Part shown: positions 10,661 through 64,000 of the stretch, in pieces
Position numbering within the stretch: the first letter of the stretch is position 1
Layout of the letters: each line of letters starts with the position of its first letter
Assembly (NCBI RefSeq): GCF_014197055.1
Contig: NZ_JACIEW010000004.1
Location: 248,001-312,000 of the forward strand
Length of the DNA stretch: 64,000 bases
Source: Devosia subaequoris
Lineage (GTDB): Bacteria; Pseudomonadota; Alphaproteobacteria; Rhizobiales; Devosiaceae
Reading direction: 5' to 3'
The notes under the pieces: model-generated
The model's database searches: none
Told to the model about the DNA's origin: nothing
The model's input: the letters and a program-made list of their open reading frames with translations, nothing else
Position numbers and translations under genes: made by a program

Positions 10661-11221
10661 CTAGAGAGACGAAATGATCTCTTCCACCAGCGCTTCGGTG
10701 TCTTCGCCCGAGCGGATGGCGATCTGCCCGTCAAGCAGCAGCACAGCCAGGCCATGCACCTTAGCCCAGGCCGCCAGGGCCCGAACGCGGCCGTTCTCGA
10801 GATCGCCGCCGACCAGATGGCGCAGCGTATCAAAAGCTGCGTCGGCCGCCATTCGCAGGCCGGGCCGGGAATCCTTCTTCAATTGCGGGGAGAACATCAG
10901 GCGGAAGAGGTTGGCATTTTGCAGCGCAAAGACCACGTAGGTTTTGCCCATGGCCGCCATCGGATCGTGTGGCCGGCTCGCCGCCACCGCCTCCATGCGC
11001 GCGGCAAAGCGCTGGAACCCGGTCACTGCCAGCGCTTCAAGCAAAGCCGCACGGCTGTCGAAATGTCGATAGGGTGCCGCCGGCGATACCCCCACCGCCC
11101 GCGCCAGATCGCGCAAGCCCAAGCCCGCTTCGCCCTGTTGCTCGAGAATGACCAGCGCCGCCTCGAGCAGGGCCTGGCGCAGATTGCCGTGATGATAGGG
11201 GCTATTGGATGATGTTGACAT
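10661..11221 (-). CDS. TetR/AcrR family transcriptional regulator
   Basis: 186 residues. N-terminal helix-turn-helix: HHGNLRQALLEAALVIL followed by GLRDLARAVGVSPAAPYRHF, the classic TetR recognition helix; the C-terminal half resembles the WHG-type ligand domain (FRLMFSPQLK). It is divergent from the DUF2214 membrane gene, and a 21-base inverted repeat in the shared gap is a plausible operator, so it probably represses itself and that neighbour. Confidence 0.9.
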   Translation of the reverse strand: MSTSSNSPYHHGNLRQALLEAALVILEQQGEAGLGLRDLARAVGVSPAAPYRHFDSRAALLEALAVTGFQRFAARMEAVAASRPHDPMAAMGKTYVVFALQNANLFRLMFSPQLKKDSRPGLRMAADAAFDTLRHLVGGDLENGRVRALAAWAKVHGLAVLLLDGQIAIRSGEDTEALVEEIISSL

Positions 11222-29896: not shown

Positions 29897-30517
29897 TCAA
29901 GCCCGGGCGTTCAAAAGCTCTGGTGCGATATCGCGCAAAGCGGCCAGAAGGGGAAGCAGCGGAAGCCCCAGAATGGTGAAATAGTCGCCGGCCACGGTTT
30001 CTAACAGGCGAATAGACGGGCCTTCCAGCCGATAACCGCCGACCGAGCCAAGGCTTGCCTCCCCCTCCAGATCAAGCACGTGATCGCGTTCCTCGGCGGA
30101 AAAGTCACGCATGGTCAACTCGGCCGTCTGAAGATCGGACCAGAGCAGATGCCCGTCCCGCACCAGGGTCACCGCAGCGTGCAGCCGATGAGTCTTGCCC
30201 CGCAGGTGATCGAGCTGGGCGACGGCCTCCGCGCGCGACGCGGGCTTGTGCAAGAGTTCCAGGCCCAAAGCGAGCGTCTGGTCGGCGCCAATAACCAGGT
30301 CACCTTGCCGGCTGCTGGAAACGACTTCGGCCTTGTGCCGCGCCAACAGCAGGGCAACATCCCGGGCATCACCGCCAGCCTCAAGAGCCTGATTTTCTAC
30401 CTGGCGCTCATCGAGTTCTGCCGGCTTGGCCTCAAAACGCAATCCAGCCTTGTCCAGCAAGGCTTTGCGCGTCGCACTGGCAGAAGCGAGGATCAGCATG
30501 GGAAGCAGTTTTTCCAC
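29897..30517 (-). CDS. maf: Maf family nucleoside triphosphate pyrophosphatase
   Basis: 206 residues from GTG 30517 (ATG 30499 alternative). Hydrolyses non-canonical or methylated nucleoside triphosphates and has been linked to septum control. Signatures: LILASASATRKALLDKAGL, ELDERQV, GDLVIGADQTL with the catalytic aspartate, and GSVGGYRLEG. It is the first gene of the leftward block beside the candidate origin; a DnaA-box-like TTTTCCACA overlaps its start codon. Confidence 0.95.
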   Translation of the reverse strand: MEKLLPMLILASASATRKALLDKAGLRFEAKPAELDERQVENQALEAGGDARDVALLLARHKAEVVSSSRQGDLVIGADQTLALGLELLHKPASRAEAVAQLDHLRGKTHRLHAAVTLVRDGHLLWSDLQTAELTMRDFSAEERDHVLDLEGEASLGSVGGYRLEGPSIRLLETVAGDYFTILGLPLLPLLAALRDIAPELLNARA

Positions 30518-30737
30518 ACTGTCATCCCCAGCTCAAGACCGATCTGTGGGTTGGTCGCGCAACTTCGGATCGATGCCAAACTTGTCCCCCTTGGGTAAGA
30601 AATTGTTAACAGTTCGTCTTGAGCGCCGGTGAAAACCGGGCGTGGAAAGCTCTGGGGATATCGAAACGAACCGCGACAAAGATATGCGCAGCTTCATCCA
30701 CACCCGGAATCGAATCATTGACTCGGCAGAGGCCGGA

Positions 30738-30752
30738 TTAACCTCTCGTTAA
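30738..30752. promoter_or_regulatory. CtrA box (TTAA-N7-TTAA)
   Basis: TTAA at 30738-30741, seven bases CCTCTCG, TTAA at 30749-30752. It is the exact CtrA consensus and lies in the candidate origin, where CtrA represses initiation in Caulobacter. Confidence 0.65.
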
Positions 30753-30765
30753 TGAATTGGGCGCG

Positions 30766-30781
30766 TTAAGATTTCAGTAAC
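30766..30781. promoter_or_regulatory. Near-consensus CtrA box
   Basis: TTAA at 30766-30769, seven bases, then GTAAC at 30777-30781: one mismatch from TTAA-N7-TTAAC. It is 28 bases from the perfect box. Confidence 0.45.
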
Positions 30782-30940
30782 AGTCTGGAGCGGATTCACA
30801 CCCCGTTAACCATGGCCTGCGCGCAAGTGTCACTTCGCACTTGGATTGTGGGTGGAACGGAATTGCAGCTAAACACCGCCATAATGATAAAGAAGCGAAG
30901 CAAGAAAGACTCTTTATAGGGTTTTGGAAGGGATCAACCC

Positions 30941-31975
30941 ATGGCTCCGGTGACGCACAAACCATTGCTCGCCACAGTATTGGGACAGCGTCAGGAACGC
31001 CCCCCGATCTGGATCATGCGGCAGGCCGGGCGCTATCTGCCCGAATATCGGCAGACCCGGGCGCAGACGGGCGGTTTTCTGGAATTGTGCTACACACCGG
31101 AACTGGCAGTGGAGGTCACGCTGCAGCCGCTCCGGCGCTTTGACCTGGATGCCGCCATCCTGTTTTCCGACATTCTGGTCATCCCCGATGCTTTGGGGCA
31201 GAGCGTACGCTTTGCAACGGGCGAAGGGCCCTTGCTCGATCCGCTCGATGAAAAAGGCATTGATGGTCTGGACCGGGATCGAGCGATAGCTCATCTGGCG
31301 CCGGTCTTTGAGACACTGCGGCGGCTTCGTGCGGCCTTGCCACCTGAAAAGACCCTGATCGGCTTCTGCGGCGCGCCCTGGACAGTGGCGACCTATATGC
31401 TGGGCGGTCGAGGTTCCCCGGATCAATGGGCCGCACGCCGGTTCGCGCTGGAGCATCCTCAGGCTTTTGACAGGCTGATCGATATCCTGGTGGATACCTC
31501 GATCGATTATCTCGCGGCGCAGTTCGAAGCGGGCGCCGATGTGGTGCAGCTTTTTGAAAGCTGGGCACTCAATCTCGACGATGCCAGTTTCTTCCGCCAG
31601 GTGATGGACCCCAACCGGCGGATTGTTGAAGGATTGCGCCAGCGGGTCCCCGATGCACCGGTGATCGGCTTCCCGCGTGGCGCGGCGGGCAATCTCCGAC
31701 GTTTTTCGGAGGCTACCGGAGTTAATGCCTTGGGGATCGACTTCGCCACGCCGATCGACTTCGTCAACGCGCATTTGCCGCCGGAGCTGGCTGTGCAGGG
31801 CAATCTTGATCCGCTGCGGCTGGTCGTCGGTGGTGAAGCCATGGAGCGGCAAGCCCGTGCCATTATCGAGGGCTTCGCGAACCGGCCGCATATCTTCAAT
31901 CTGGGACACGGCATCGTCCCCGAAACGCCGATCGCCCATGTCGAGCGGCTCGTCGAACTGGTCAAAGGCGGCTAA
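30941..31975 (+). CDS. hemE: Uroporphyrinogen decarboxylase
   Basis: 344 residues. Converts uroporphyrinogen III to coproporphyrinogen III in heme synthesis. Signatures: PPIWIMRQAGRYLPEYR (residues 21-37) with the substrate arginines, ILFSDILVIPDALG with the essential aspartate, GFCGAPWTVATYMLGGRGS, and FNLGHGIVPETP near the C-terminus. GGAAGGGA lies nine bases before the ATG. It borders the candidate origin, as in Caulobacter. Confidence 0.99.
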   Translation: MAPVTHKPLLATVLGQRQERPPIWIMRQAGRYLPEYRQTRAQTGGFLELCYTPELAVEVTLQPLRRFDLDAAILFSDILVIPDALGQSVRFATGEGPLLDPLDEKGIDGLDRDRAIAHLAPVFETLRRLRAALPPEKTLIGFCGAPWTVATYMLGGRGSPDQWAARRFALEHPQAFDRLIDILVDTSIDYLAAQFEAGADVVQLFESWALNLDDASFFRQVMDPNRRIVEGLRQRVPDAPVIGFPRGAAGNLRRFSEATGVNALGIDFATPIDFVNAHLPPELAVQGNLDPLRLVVGGEAMERQARAIIEGFANRPHIFNLGHGIVPETPIAHVERLVELVKGG

Positions 31976-34002: not shown

Positions 34003-35295
34003 ATGCAGGCGGGCGACACCATCATGGCGCTCTCCTCCGGCGCGTTGCCGGCAGGTGTCGCGGTCATTCGGCTCTCGGGCCCGCGCGTGCAGGAAATCCT
34101 CAAGCAAATTGCCGGGGGCGTCCCCAGTCCACGGCAAATGGCTCTGCGCAGGATCGGTGCAGGGCAAATGCTCGATCAGGGGCTGGTTGCGTTCTTTCCG
34201 GCACCGCATAGCTTCACCGGTGAAGATTGCGCAGAACTGCAAGTGCACGGCTCACCGGCCGGGGTGAGGGCAATTCTGGCTCAGCTAGCAACCCTCGGTC
34301 TGCGCCTGGCGGAAGCCGGCGAATTCACTCGCCGCGCGTTTGAAAACGGTAAGCTCGATCTGGTCGAAATTGAGGGACTGGGCGATTTGCTCAGTGCCGA
34401 AACTGAAAAGCAGCGCCAGCAGGCCCTGTCGCGTTTTGACGGCCGGCTCACGGAGAAAATCACCCAATGGCGTGAAAGTCTGCTGGATCTGCGCGCTGAG
34501 ATCGAGGCACGGCTCGACTTCTCCGATGAAGGCGATGTGCCCGAGGACCTGCCGGATCAATGGCAGCACCAATTGGGCGCGCTTGAAGCGGCCATCCGGA
34601 CGTCACTGGCCTCATTGGAAAGTGGCCGCATCGTTCGCGAGGGGATCAGGGTGGCGCTGGCGGGCGCGCCCAATGCCGGCAAATCCAGCCTGATAAACGC
34701 CCTGGCAAAGTCAGACCTTGCTATCGTGTCGGACGAAGCGGGCACGACCCGTGATGTGAGGGAAGTGCCATTGGACATCAATGGTCAACTTTTTATTCTG
34801 CTCGATCTCGCTGGCCTGCGTGAGAGCGATAGCAAGGCAGAAGCCGAGGGTGTTCGGCGGGCACAACGGGCGATAGAGACAGCCGATGTCGTACTATGGC
34901 TTTCGGCGCCGGACGTTGAAGATATCGCGCCTTCCGGTGTTTCAGGTCAACTTGTTCGCATCGGGACAAAGTCGGACCTGGGGTCGCAAACCGGCGTCGA
35001 TATTAGCATCTCAACCAAATCGTTAGACGGCCTGACAGCTCTACGGCAGCGCCTTGACGGGTTGGCGGCAAACGTCACGGGTTCAGAACCCAGCCTTGTC
35101 AGCCACGAAAGAGATCGTCTGGCGCTCAGCGGGTCGTTAACGGCCTTAGAGGAAACACGGCGAAATCTCGGAGACTGGGAATTAGCCGCCGAATCCCTGC
35201 GCAGGGCGTCTGCTGCGCTAGAGCGGCTCATCGGGCGGATCGACGCCGAACGCGTATTGGACCGGCTGTTCTCCAGCTTCTGCATCGGGAAATGA
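34003..35295 (+). CDS. mnmE: tRNA modification GTPase MnmE (TrmE)
   Basis: 430 residues. Works with MnmG to form 5-carboxymethylaminomethyl-uridine at tRNA wobble positions. N-terminal folate-binding domain (DTIMALSSGALPAGVAVIRL, APHSFTGEDCAELQVHG), helical domain, then a G domain: GAPNAGKSSLINAL (G1), DEAGTTRDV (G2), LLDLAGLRES (G3), IGTKSDLG (G4, with TKSD instead of NKxD). It ends FCIGK, keeping the conserved cysteine. Somewhat shorter than E. coli (454) within the G domain. Confidence 0.98.
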   Translation: MQAGDTIMALSSGALPAGVAVIRLSGPRVQEILKQIAGGVPSPRQMALRRIGAGQMLDQGLVAFFPAPHSFTGEDCAELQVHGSPAGVRAILAQLATLGLRLAEAGEFTRRAFENGKLDLVEIEGLGDLLSAETEKQRQQALSRFDGRLTEKITQWRESLLDLRAEIEARLDFSDEGDVPEDLPDQWQHQLGALEAAIRTSLASLESGRIVREGIRVALAGAPNAGKSSLINALAKSDLAIVSDEAGTTRDVREVPLDINGQLFILLDLAGLRESDSKAEAEGVRRAQRAIETADVVLWLSAPDVEDIAPSGVSGQLVRIGTKSDLGSQTGVDISISTKSLDGLTALRQRLDGLAANVTGSEPSLVSHERDRLALSGSLTALEETRRNLGDWELAAESLRRASAALERLIGRIDAERVLDRLFSSFCIGK

Positions 35296-35307
35296 TTCAC
35301 GTGAAAC
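35294..35307 (+). other. parS-like site 5 (mnmE-mnmG gap)
   Basis: GATTCACGTGAAAC immediately at the mnmE stop codon. One base from the symmetric core; 47 bases from site 6. Confidence 0.7.
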
Positions 35308-35340
35308 ACGCCCAAGAAGTCATCCAGCGAGCTGGCAATT

Positions 35341-35354
35341 GATTCACGTGAAAC
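35341..35354 (+). other. parS-like site 6 (mnmE-mnmG gap)
   Basis: GATTCACGTGAAAC followed by A, in the 93-base gap before mnmG. It is identical to site 5 over 14 bases and in the same orientation. Confidence 0.7.
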
Positions 35355-35388
35355 ATTGGCCTATGTCTGGCGCCTTGGAGAAATTGCC

Positions 35389-37251: not shown

Positions 37252-37899
37252 ATGGTAGACATCGAGGCCATCCTACCCTATGGACCGGTTTTTTCACGAC
37301 CGGTTGATGAGGTGGCGCGCGATCTGGAATCCTATGCCAAACTCCTGGCGAAATGGCAGTCTGTGCAGAATCTGGTTTCACGTGAAACATTGACTCACAT
37401 CTGGACCCGGCACTTTGCTGACAGCCTGCAGGTCCTCAGTTTGACGACCGAGGATGATCGGCTGTGTCTTGATATCGGCAGCGGCGGCGGGTTTCCCGCG
37501 CTCCCTATGGCCATTGCCAGCAAAGGCACCGATCGCCAGTTCGTCCTGATCGAGCCGACGGCCCGCAAAGTCAGCTTTCTTCGCACCGTAGCGCGAGAAC
37601 TAGGGCTCAACGTGACGGTAATCGGACGTCGCAGCGACCAGGTTGATTCACGTGAAACAGGCGTGCCGGACGTCATTACCTCCCGCGCTTTGGCCGCCAT
37701 GCCCCAATTGTGCGGTTGGATGGCGCCATTTTTCGGTCCAAACAGCAGAGCCTTGCTGCATAAAGGACGGGAACATGTTGAAGAGCTCGTGGAATCGGGT
37801 GCGCAGTGGCATCATGACGTGCTAGTAAGGGTGAGTGACACAGATCCCGGCGGCGTGATCCTGACGATTACGAATCTGCGCCGGAAAACAATGCGTTAG
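37252..37899 (+). CDS. rsmG: 16S rRNA (guanine-527-N7)-methyltransferase RsmG (GidB)
   Basis: 215 residues. Methylates G527 of 16S rRNA using S-adenosylmethionine. N-terminal LAKWQSVQNLVSRETLTHIW motif, then the AdoMet loop CLDIGSGGGFPALPMAI, LIEPTARKVSFLRTV, and SRALAAMPQLCGW. The codons for VSRET and DSRET each contain a parS-like site. Its ATG directly follows the mnmG stop. Confidence 0.98.
   Translation: MVDIEAILPYGPVFSRPVDEVARDLESYAKLLAKWQSVQNLVSRETLTHIWTRHFADSLQVLSLTTEDDRLCLDIGSGGGFPALPMAIASKGTDRQFVLIEPTARKVSFLRTVARELGLNVTVIGRRSDQVDSRETGVPDVITSRALAAMPQLCGWMAPFFGPNSRALLHKGREHVEELVESGAQWHHDVLVRVSDTDPGGVILTITNLRRKTMR
37375..37388 (+). other. parS site 7 (inside rsmG, fully symmetric)
   Basis: GTTTCACGTGAAAC followed by A: the perfect 14-base palindrome of the bacterial parS consensus TGTTTCACGTGAAACA, one outer base different. 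It reads Val-Ser-Arg-Glu-Thr in rsmG. This is the strongest site in the window, 540 bases before parA. Confidence 0.85.
37645..37658 (+). other. parS-like site 8 (inside rsmG)
   Basis: GATTCACGTGAAAC followed by A, preceded by TT. It reads Asp-Ser-Arg-Glu-Thr in rsmG, 257 bases downstream of site 7. Confidence 0.75.
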
Positions 37900-37917: not shown

Positions 37918-38718
<801 letters not shown>

Positions 38719-38727
38719 GAGCTCAAT

Positions 38728-39603
38728 ATGACCGACAAACCAACCCGACTGGGCCGAGGCCTTGCCGCCCTGATTGGTGATATGGCGGTGGTTGAAGGTG
38801 CGCGGGTGACCGAGTCATCTGGTGGCAGCAAGCGCCTCCCGGTCGATTTCATCATTGCCAATCGGGCTAATCCACGGCGCAGCTTCGACGCCGAACAGCT
38901 TGAAGAACTGACCAACTCAATTCGGGAAAAGGGCGTTATGTCGCCCTTACTGGTAAGGCCCACTGATGATCCGAATATTTTCGAGCTTATCGCCGGTGAG
39001 CGGCGTTGGCGGGCGGCTCAGAAGGCCGGCCTGCACGATGTACCGGTCATCGTCCGAGAGGTCGATGACAAGGAAGCGCTTGAGCTGGCCATTATCGAGA
39101 ATGTGCAGCGTGCTGACCTGAACCCGCTTGAAGAGGCCCTGGGATATGGGCAGCTGATCGAGCAGTTTGAATATACCCAGCAGGACCTGGCCCAGGTCAT
39201 CGGTAAGTCGCGCTCGCACGTCGCCAATACGCTGCGCCTGCTCAAGTTGCCCGAAGATGTGCGGGGCATGGTTTCGGGTGGCACCTTGACCGCCGGACAC
39301 GCCAGAACATTGATTACAGCCGAAGATCCTGCTGCCCTTGCCCGCCAAATCGTTGACAAGGGGCTGTCGGTGCGTGAGGCGGAGGCGCTTAGCCAACAGC
39401 GCGATCTGCCCAAGCGCAAGCCCGTTGCGGAGCATGCGCAGCGCGATGCGGACACGCTGGCGCTGGAAAGGCGCTTGGCCGATGCGCTCGGGTTGAGCGT
39501 CGCACTCAACCATTCAGAGCGCGGCGGGAAGGTTGAAATTCGCTATAAGACGCTGGAGCAGCTTGATGATATCTGCCTCCGCCTGACTGGTCGCACCAAC
39601 TAA
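38728..39603 (+). CDS. parB: Chromosome partitioning protein ParB
   Basis: 291 residues. CTP-dependent DNA clamp that loads at parS and spreads. N-terminal LGRGLAALIGD contacts ParA, the CTPase region shows ELIAGERRWRAAQKAGL and IIENVQRADLNPLEEALGY, the HTH that reads parS is QQDLAQVIGKSRSHVANTL, and a C-terminal dimerisation part ends the protein. The numerous parS-like palindromes around it are its expected targets. Confidence 0.98.
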   Translation: MTDKPTRLGRGLAALIGDMAVVEGARVTESSGGSKRLPVDFIIANRANPRRSFDAEQLEELTNSIREKGVMSPLLVRPTDDPNIFELIAGERRWRAAQKAGLHDVPVIVREVDDKEALELAIIENVQRADLNPLEEALGYGQLIEQFEYTQQDLAQVIGKSRSHVANTLRLLKLPEDVRGMVSGGTLTAGHARTLITAEDPAALARQIVDKGLSVREAEALSQQRDLPKRKPVAEHAQRDADTLALERRLADALGLSVALNHSERGGKVEIRYKTLEQLDDICLRLTGRTN

Positions 39604-50350: not shown

Positions 50351-50784
50351 TCCTGTTCCTCGGCGTCGGCGAGAGCTTCCAGGGCCTCCATGTCCGCGTC
50401 GGAAAAACCGAAATGGTGTCCCAGTTCGTGGATCAGCACATGGGTGACGATTTCGCCCAGGGTATTGTCGTCGTGTTCGGCCCAATAGTCGAGAATGGCG
50501 CGGCGGTAGAGATAGACCGTATTGGGCATCTGGCCGGTCTGGGGCGTGGCGCCGTCTTCTGTCAGGCCAACGCCGGAAAACAGCCCCATCAGCTCGAACG
50601 GGCTTTCCATGCCGAAGTCTTGAAGGATTTCGTCCTCGGCGAATTCGGCCACTGAGCAGGTGACGTCGGCCGCTAGAGAGGCAAAAGGCTCCGGCAGGTC
50701 GGCCAGTGCCGCGCTCGCCAGAGCCTCTAGATCATCCAATGTCGGGGCATAGAGCCCCGACCAGTCTGTCTTGCTTAGTGCCAC
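50344..50784 (-). CDS. Metallopeptidase (minimal zincin) family protein
   Basis: 146 residues from GTG 50784, which overlaps the leuC stop. Predicted small cytosolic zinc peptidase of the DUF1025/zincin type: the HExxH site lies in [20 protein letters not shown] near residue 120, preceded by [12 protein letters not shown] and [15 protein letters not shown]. The third zinc ligand is probably the aspartate of the GFSD segment. Substrate unknown. Neighbouring leuC in this way is common in Rhizobiales. Confidence 0.88.
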
Positions 50785-63442: not shown

Positions 63443-64000
63443 GCCTCAGCCCCCAGGGTCAGCGTGGCTGCGCCGGGCAGGGCGATATCGTCGTGGGTGG
63501 CGATCACGGCCAATCCGCCACTCTCCAGATGATCCACGAGCAGCGCCGCCATCAACTCCCGCCCTGCCGCATCGAGCGCGGCGCTGGGTTCATCGAGCAG
63601 CCAGACCGGCCTTGGTGACACCAACAGCCGGGCCAGAACGAGGCGGCGCTGCTGACCCGCCGAGAGATAGCCCGCATCGACACGGGCGGTGCGCGCAAGC
63701 CCGACCCGTTCGAGCGCGGCTGCGGGAGGCAATGGGCCCGATCCATTGAGGTCGGCCCAGAATCGCAGGGTTTCAAGGACGGTGAGGCGCGGCCGCACTG
63801 CGTTTTTGTGTCCGCAATGATGGATGAAGGGTCCCGCTTCGGGATCGGCACCCTCGAAAACGAGTGTGCCCGAGATGGGTCGCAGCAAGCCGGCCAGGGT
63901 GAGCAGAAGGGTGGATTTGCCCGCGCCGTTGGGCCCGCGCAGCAGCAGGGCGCTGCCGGCTGCGACCTCCAGCGACAAATCTGCCACCAGCACAGCGTCA
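63439..64000 (-). CDS. ccmA: Heme exporter ATPase CcmA (5' end beyond window)
   Basis: 186 residues visible, open to the window edge; only the first residues are missing. ABC ATPase domain: Walker A LLRGPNGAGKSTLLLTLAGL, Q-loop replaced by a histidine-rich HHCGHKNAVRP, signature LSAGQQRRLVLARLL, Walker B VWLLDEPSAALD and H-loop VIATHDDIAL. It energises release of holo-CcmE by CcmABCD. First visible gene of the leftward ccm operon. Confidence 0.95.
   Translation of the reverse strand, partial: DAVLVADLSLEVAAGSALLLRGPNGAGKSTLLLTLAGLLRPISGTLVFEGADPEAGPFIHHCGHKNAVRPRLTVLETLRFWADLNGSGPLPPAAALERVGLARTARVDAGYLSAGQQRRLVLARLLVSPRPVWLLDEPSAALDAAGRELMAALLVDHLESGGLAVIATHDDIALPGAATLTLGAEA

Follow-up and report, generated by a model that had tools for sequence, protein, structure and literature searches.

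The gap between maf and hemE as the candidate origin of chromosome replication in Devosia subaequoris

Where does replication of the main chromosome begin in Devosia, and does the gap between maf and hemE hold the signals for it? The replication origin of Sinorhizobium meliloti adjoins hemE. That of Caulobacter, Cori, is placed between hemE and COG1806/ppsR in the excerpted text of PMC1914354. The window analysed here, the whole stretch of 64,000 nt (G000:C4:248001-312000), belongs to a genome of 3.79 Mb in 29 contigs (G000) and reads, by Pfam, coaE (-), aroE (-), maf (-), the gap, hemE (+), a UPF0093 gene, rho, mnmE, mnmG, rsmG, parA and then a parB-like ORF; its HemE is 85% identical to the best-matching named record, from Devosia ureilytica. 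Judged from sequence, the maf-hemE gap is very likely the DnaA-dependent origin of the main chromosome, an origin at this place being the best explanation for a motif set conserved in the genus, adjacent parS sites, an antipodal dif and a motif cluster independent of its neighbours. The locus comprises:

29897-30499, minus strand: maf, left flank (Pfam Maf, 1.2e-41), with its ATG start at 30499
30500-30940, no strand: candidate oriC, the whole maf-hemE gap (length and column conservation in 30 same-genus loci)
30941-31975, plus strand: hemE, right flank (Pfam URO-D, 1.8e-107)
35293-35308, 35340-35355, 37374-37389 and 37644-37659, no strand: parS-like sites, one mismatch each
37918-38718, plus strand: parA (Pfam AAA_31, 6.7e-58, and CbiA; the name ParA is from context)
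38728-39603: parB-like ORF, named from its look and context only

The gap lies between maf and hemE, as the initial annotation had it, but the extent of 423 bases given there has been corrected to 441 bases (30500-30940): about eight alignment columns just past 30499 are variable among the 30 same-genus loci, and the start of maf is thus taken to be ATG 30499, not GTG 30517. Nor is it the only long non-coding gap, as had been claimed, since a crude ORF caller leaves 375-424 b free of ORFs at three further places in the window (10834-11208, 50351-50774 and 63443-63823; 0.61-0.69 GC, 0-1 GANTC each); the same caller missed the maf-hemE gap because spurious ORFs overlap it. The three GC-rich stretches gave no Rfam or tRNA match, and the window as a whole yielded neither a tRNA nor any Rfam family at gathering threshold. 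Within the gap, the following elements were located:

30510-30518, plus strand: DnaA-box-like TTTTCCACA, one base off TTATCCACA
30525-30530, plus strand: W-box TCCCCA, in the same conserved block (30509-30540) as the DnaA-like box at 30510
30653-30658, minus strand: W-box TCCCCA (TGGGGA on the plus strand), in conserved block 30650-30660
30694-30702, plus strand: DnaA-box-like TCATCCACA, one base off TTATCCACA, variable beyond the closest relatives
30707-30711, 30712-30716 and 30720-30724, no strand: three GANTC (CcrM) sites
30738-30752, no strand: perfect CtrA box TTAACCTCTCGTTAA, the sole TTAA-N7-TTAA in the 64-kb window
30766-30780, plus strand: imperfect CtrA-like TTAAGATTTCAGTAA, poorly conserved
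30795-30809, plus strand: second CtrA-like box TTCACACCCCGTTAA, one base off, overlapped by GANTC 30793-30797
30844-30851, minus strand: conserved GATTGTGG, a reversed DnaA-core-like sequence (block 30842-30852; 26/30 same-genus gaps)
30879-30918, no strand: least stable 40 bases of the window, a candidate unwinding element; it overlaps with GANTC 30908-30912 and possibly with the hemE promoter

The gap has fewer strong DnaA boxes than the E. coli origin; its DnaA-binding potential lies in a weak cluster of two 9-mers, each one base off consensus, and two W-boxes, all four of which had been correctly noted from the letters alone, as had the two CtrA-type boxes, the one at 30738-30752 perfect and the one at 30795-30809 one base off. 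TTTTCCACA is the sole TTWTNCACA in the 64-kb window. The CtrA boxes are of the TTAA-N7-TTAA type found at Cori and, being matches in sequence, count as candidate sites. Two features went unremarked in the initial annotation, namely the GANTC (CcrM) sites, five in total (30707, 30712, 30720, 30793 and 30908), and the least stable 40 bases of the window; none of 63,960 window positions is weaker in 40-base stability than 30879-30918, as befits an AT-rich unwinding region, and the GC content is 51% in the gap against 61% in the window. The IHF consensus WATCAN5WTR was not found in the gap, but it is a loose consensus and weak evidence either way.

In comparison with Cori of Caulobacter crescentus, as far as the excerpts of PMC1914354, PMC4285127, PMC4468827 and PMC3973325 describe it, the gap shares the hemE flank, weak DnaA boxes together with TCCCCA W-boxes, TTAA-N7-TTAA CtrA boxes and GANTC sites. 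The resemblance in location holds on the hemE side only, the gap having maf as its neighbour and lacking the COG1806/ppsR flank. It also has one perfect and two imperfect CtrA boxes where Cori has five sites, TTTTCCACA and TCATCCACA as DnaA boxes where the excerpt of PMC4285127 gives the G-box TGATCCACA alongside the W-box TCCCCA, and, unlike Cori, no match to the IHF consensus. The gap is probably an alphaproteobacterial oriC of the usual kind in the usual place.

Could such a cluster have arisen by chance? Each motif class alone is just moderately rare in 3000 dinucleotide shuffles of the gap (CtrA 16/3000, W 99/3000, TCCACA 57/3000, and GANTC, a class picked after the gap had been seen, 140/3000), while the combination stands out, all four counts being jointly reached in 0/3000 shuffles; none of 62,676 other 441-b positions in the window matches the gap's count in at least two classes. 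Scored by motif classes that had been selected in knowledge of the gap, the gap ranks first among the windows within 386-400 kb around hemE in 4/4 genomes (scores of 10.5-16.4, next best at most 6.0). This lead over the surroundings appears only once the W, CtrA and GANTC classes are added to E. coli-type boxes; with the latter alone (at most one mismatch), the gap is not top in all four genomes (2 against a best of 3 in its own genome, 1 against 2 in G015).

Conservation was followed in 30 same-genus loci (the locus itself and 29 others, from 37 same-genus genomes), all of which keep the order maf-gap-hemE with a gap of 431-442 b. At least 90% conservation is seen in 151 of 428 usable gap columns (35%), compared with 5% of 78 4-fold sites and 7% of 341 third positions in hemE. 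At least one perfect CtrA box is present in 29/30 gaps, L025 being the one without, and in almost no shuffle; at least two TTMA-N7-TTWA occur in 28/30. TCCACA is found in 30/30 gaps, the W-box in 28/30 and GANTC in 30/30, the last at a mean of 5.67 per gap against 1.58 in shuffles. As for individual elements, TTTTCCACAC is present in 29/30 gaps, a loose pattern spanning the left DnaA-like box and W-box (TCCACA variant allowed) in 26/30, TGGGGA anywhere in the gap in 26/30, TTGACTC in 28/30 and a close GANTC pair in 27/30. Comparison with relatives had been proposed at the outset as a check, and the motif set is indeed kept across the 30 loci.

From the motifs, their conservation, the flanks and the parS/dif geometry, all of which are read in the DNA itself, we infer every step of binding and regulation, as well as the exact firing point, of a possible mode of action. 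DnaA would bind the left pair of boxes (30510-30530) and the one at the centre (30694-30702), spread over the weak W-boxes and open the AT-rich stretch beside hemE (30879-30918). Phosphorylated CtrA on 30738-30752 and 30795-30809 would exclude DnaA and block initiation in G1-like cells; DnaA exclusion by CtrA is the simplest mechanism given for Cori in the excerpted text of PMC4468827. Once the fork has passed, the GANTC sites that separate the DnaA from the CtrA boxes would be hemimethylated and may modulate rebinding until CcrM returns, while ParB on the parS sites 4-7 kb away would segregate the new origins. As candidate DnaA, CcrM and CtrA sites fall within about 60 bases (30694-30752), replication, methylation and cell-type signals would share one module. 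The genome encodes a CtrA 83% identical to the Caulobacter sequence, and a RAMA-domain (CcrM-type) protein is found in 11/11 genomes.

A CtrA signature in most Devosia gaps is, on its sequence, unexpected for the order Hyphomicrobiales. The portions of text consulted report predicted CtrA boxes in the origins of Wolbachia, Ehrlichia, Anaplasma and Rickettsia (PMC1914354) and binding of Hyphomonas CtrA beside its origin (PMC7200025), and they describe an S. meliloti origin with no CtrA motif and not bound by CtrA (PMC4433202) and, for Brucella CtrA, no binding at the origin (PMC2877005). No literature on a Devosia oriC or on CtrA at Hyphomicrobiales origins was found, judging by title or the start of the abstract. 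Perfect CtrA boxes were seen in six of the 18 other families of the order that were compared, against 0.49 expected (one genome per family, from 24 same-order genomes after leaving out one without a hemE match, one at a contig end, one too short, one with neither gene and two others). Four of these six boxes lie at -201 to -251 from hemE, those of five named Devosia loci at -193 to -203; several other families have a mid-gap CtrA box at a similar distance. Direct CtrA gating may extend into the Hyphomicrobiales, Devosia and near relatives having kept it, several families having a mid-gap box, and Rhizobiaceae, Brucella and Bradyrhizobium having lost it, a reading to which somewhat less than an even chance is given. 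A tenable alternative, itself held to be rather doubtful, is that the gap is the origin but that its CtrA boxes do not control firing and serve hemE transcription or nothing; it is compatible with the gap being a DnaA-dependent origin. It draws on S. meliloti, whose CtrA does not bind its own origin in the excerpt of PMC4433202, on Cori, where weakening all five CtrA sites perturbed the laboratory cycle no more than mildly according to the excerpt of PMC4468827, and on the gaps without a perfect box, namely L025 and 35 of the 39 ppsR-hemE gaps of other genera. Against it stands the retention of a perfect box in all but one of the same-genus gaps, near-absent in shuffles and beside DnaA-like and GANTC sites.

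Whether the gap sits where an origin should sit on the chromosome can be asked of parS, dif and dnaA. Sites for parS lie near Cori in Caulobacter, as they do near the gap in Devosia, and in 11/11 genomes all parS-like sites (at most one mismatch) are at most 9 kb from hemE. A dif-like site, searched for with two mismatches to a dif pattern, was found exactly once in each of 10/11 genomes and not in G006. Arms were calculated for nine of the 11 genomes, since G006 lacks a dif-like match and the assembly of G000 is split into 29 contigs; among the nine, G005 and G027 consist of two contigs each. The dif-like site lies at a mean of 0.500 of the chromosome from hemE (sd 0.022, range 0.465-0.546), so that the two arms are equal. 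Measured from dnaA, the distance is 0.512-0.631 (mean 0.559), with an arm over half in 9/9 genomes. Polarity of the KOPS-like GGGCAGGG, sampled in 20 stretches of 20 kb per genome, likewise outlines two arms that meet near hemE and dif (43:2 and 10:44 in G024; 36:1 and 6:38 in G004). In G009, the best DnaA C-terminal match (G009:C1:3512603-3512809) belongs to an open frame of only 192 aa, whereas those of the other ten genomes run to about 490-580 aa, which may reflect a broken gene or a sequencing error.

The same strand signals, at finer scale, do not coincide with the gap. The skew check put forward by the initial annotation fails in the gap's own contig, where GC skew shows no sign change at the gap, its values being near zero over the adjoining 20 kb on the left and positive both beyond these and on the right. 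The strand-composition switch expected of origins in general is found 82-168 kb to the left for the KOPS-like motif: GGGCAGGG polarity has its minima at -82 (own), -91, -123 and -168 kb from the gap in four genomes (own, G000:C4, with G015, G009 and G024), and the summed counts are 44F:3R at -80 to 0 kb and a mixed 27F:36R at -200 to -80 kb. Left-side GGGCAGGG motifs are kept in all three other genomes for just 2/8 of those in the own genome and 2/11 of those in G009; being mostly unshared in position, they show a bias that descent alone does not explain. A classifier of k-mer strand composition (k=4 to 6), trained on the hemE/dif-defined arms of G024 and G004, places its minima in three genomes at -163 to -235 kb from hemE; two of these minima fall at the edge of the stretch taken from G009. 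Within 10 kb, nine named Devosiaceae-like loci show forward polarity to either side of the gap (12:6 and 14:6); polarity is more one-sided in 27 loci without maf or ppsR (2:16 and 0:20) and slight in ppsR-hemE loci (13:11 and 19:14). Few inverted blocks were seen on the synteny axis, most of them local ones on the left, and synteny was discarded as a locator because its lone cross-arm inverted block (own versus G015, centre about +6 kb) is too little to count.

These signals invite the proposal that replication starts 80-200 kb left of the gap, closer to dnaA, the gap itself being a fossil or a regulatory element. The KOPS-like and k-mer minima speak for this improbable arrangement, the latter partly at the G009 stretch edge, as does the position of dnaA, at -155 to -262 kb from hemE in 10/11 genomes and -505 kb in one. 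However, no conserved DnaA-box cluster was found there in the four genomes, the dnaA genes of G015 and G024 lying just outside the stretches scanned; the dnaA-to-dif arms are unequal as given above, parS lies by hemE, the gap is under strong constraint, and GC skew looks unreliable in the genus. Indeed, GC skew is judged an uninformative locator in the genus, as it keeps its sign across the gap in the own contig and the left arm of G024, where sampled, is mostly positive as well; it is still counted against exact placement. Candidate origins in the vicinity of dnaA or between -80 and -210 kb were rejected, as their boxes are scattered, mostly in or beside ORF calls, and differ in place between genomes. 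Separately, perfect TTATCCACA boxes lie between ORF calls at about -47.3 kb from hemE in the own contig C4 (beyond the window) and about -48.8 kb in G009, and possibly mark a DnaA-regulated promoter. With no conserved DnaA-box cluster to the left, the gap is kept as the origin; motifs, parS and dif bear out the candidate oriC reading of the initial annotation, while the KOPS-like switch to the left and a GC skew without sign change leave the exact position short of proven.

The element can finally be separated from the genes that flank it. As regards INDEPENDENCE from neighbours, the motif cluster appears, across the loci compared, to depend on neither flanking gene. In 39 of 80 named loci, ppsR (COG1806) stands between maf and the gap; ppsR (PF03618) was not found in the own genome, nor in five of 12 further genomes (two named Devosia, a Pelagibacterium, an Aureimonas and a Cohaesibacter; loci L153, L155, L159, L171 and L203), and in all of these the gap stayed. 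Fourteen named loci with maf and without ppsR have a gap of 425-636 b. The remaining 27 have neither gene in the flank: two are Devosia-like loci without detected maf (L158 and L163), both of which keep the cluster, and 25 are Bradyrhizobium-type loci with a displaced hemE, whose upstream 420 b contain CtrA boxes in 0/25, W-boxes in 0/25 and TCCACA in 2/25. Conversely, the 450 b upstream of ppsR in Bradyrhizobium-type genomes with hemE elsewhere contain, by counts only, TCCACA (1-3) and GANTC (2-8) in 6/6. With a cluster beside ppsR in the absence of hemE and none upstream of displaced hemE, the element is not simply the hemE promoter, and the hemE-promoter-only reading is rejected because the cluster does not travel with hemE. 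That the gap is regulatory only, its CtrA, DnaA and GANTC sites controlling the hemE and maf promoters, is thus highly improbable, even though the gap lies between divergent genes and must contain the hemE promoter, and CtrA, DnaA and methylation-dependent GcrA are promoter regulators in Caulobacter in the partial texts consulted. The cluster persists where ppsR is absent, where no maf is detected and, in genomes with hemE elsewhere, beside ppsR; it is missing at displaced hemE, and it is where the parS and dif geometry points.

The ppsR-hemE gaps of other Hyphomicrobiales and relatives (39 named loci) are alike in their hemE-adjacent position, a length of 299-752 b and TCCACA (34/39); they differ in having perfect CtrA boxes in 4/39, three of these in Cohaesibacter, and GANTC at 1.8 times shuffles, often near the hemE start, versus 3.6 times in same-genus gaps. 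A paired GANTC element (two GANTC 2-3 bases apart, e.g. GACTCTTAGAATC) recurs in them, at about -36 to -67 from hemE in L177, L180, L193, L207 and L230 and further out in L210 and L219. The TCCACA/GANTC cluster beside ppsR in L235-L237 and L239-L241 marks a candidate origin position for the Bradyrhizobium-type group.

If the origin reading is true, it would provide a mapped origin for Devosia and, within the Hyphomicrobiales, a case in which control of initiation by CtrA can be tested. The natural contrasts, in which ppsR is missing, maf is undetectable or hemE has moved, separate the origin element from its neighbour genes. The displaced strand polarity is a puzzle, kept as it is despite turnover of the GGGCAGGG motifs. 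Devosia would contrast with the studied Hyphomicrobiales S. meliloti and Brucella, which are without CtrA at the origin in the excerpts of PMC4433202 and PMC2877005, and would help to date the gain or loss of the link between CtrA and the origin.
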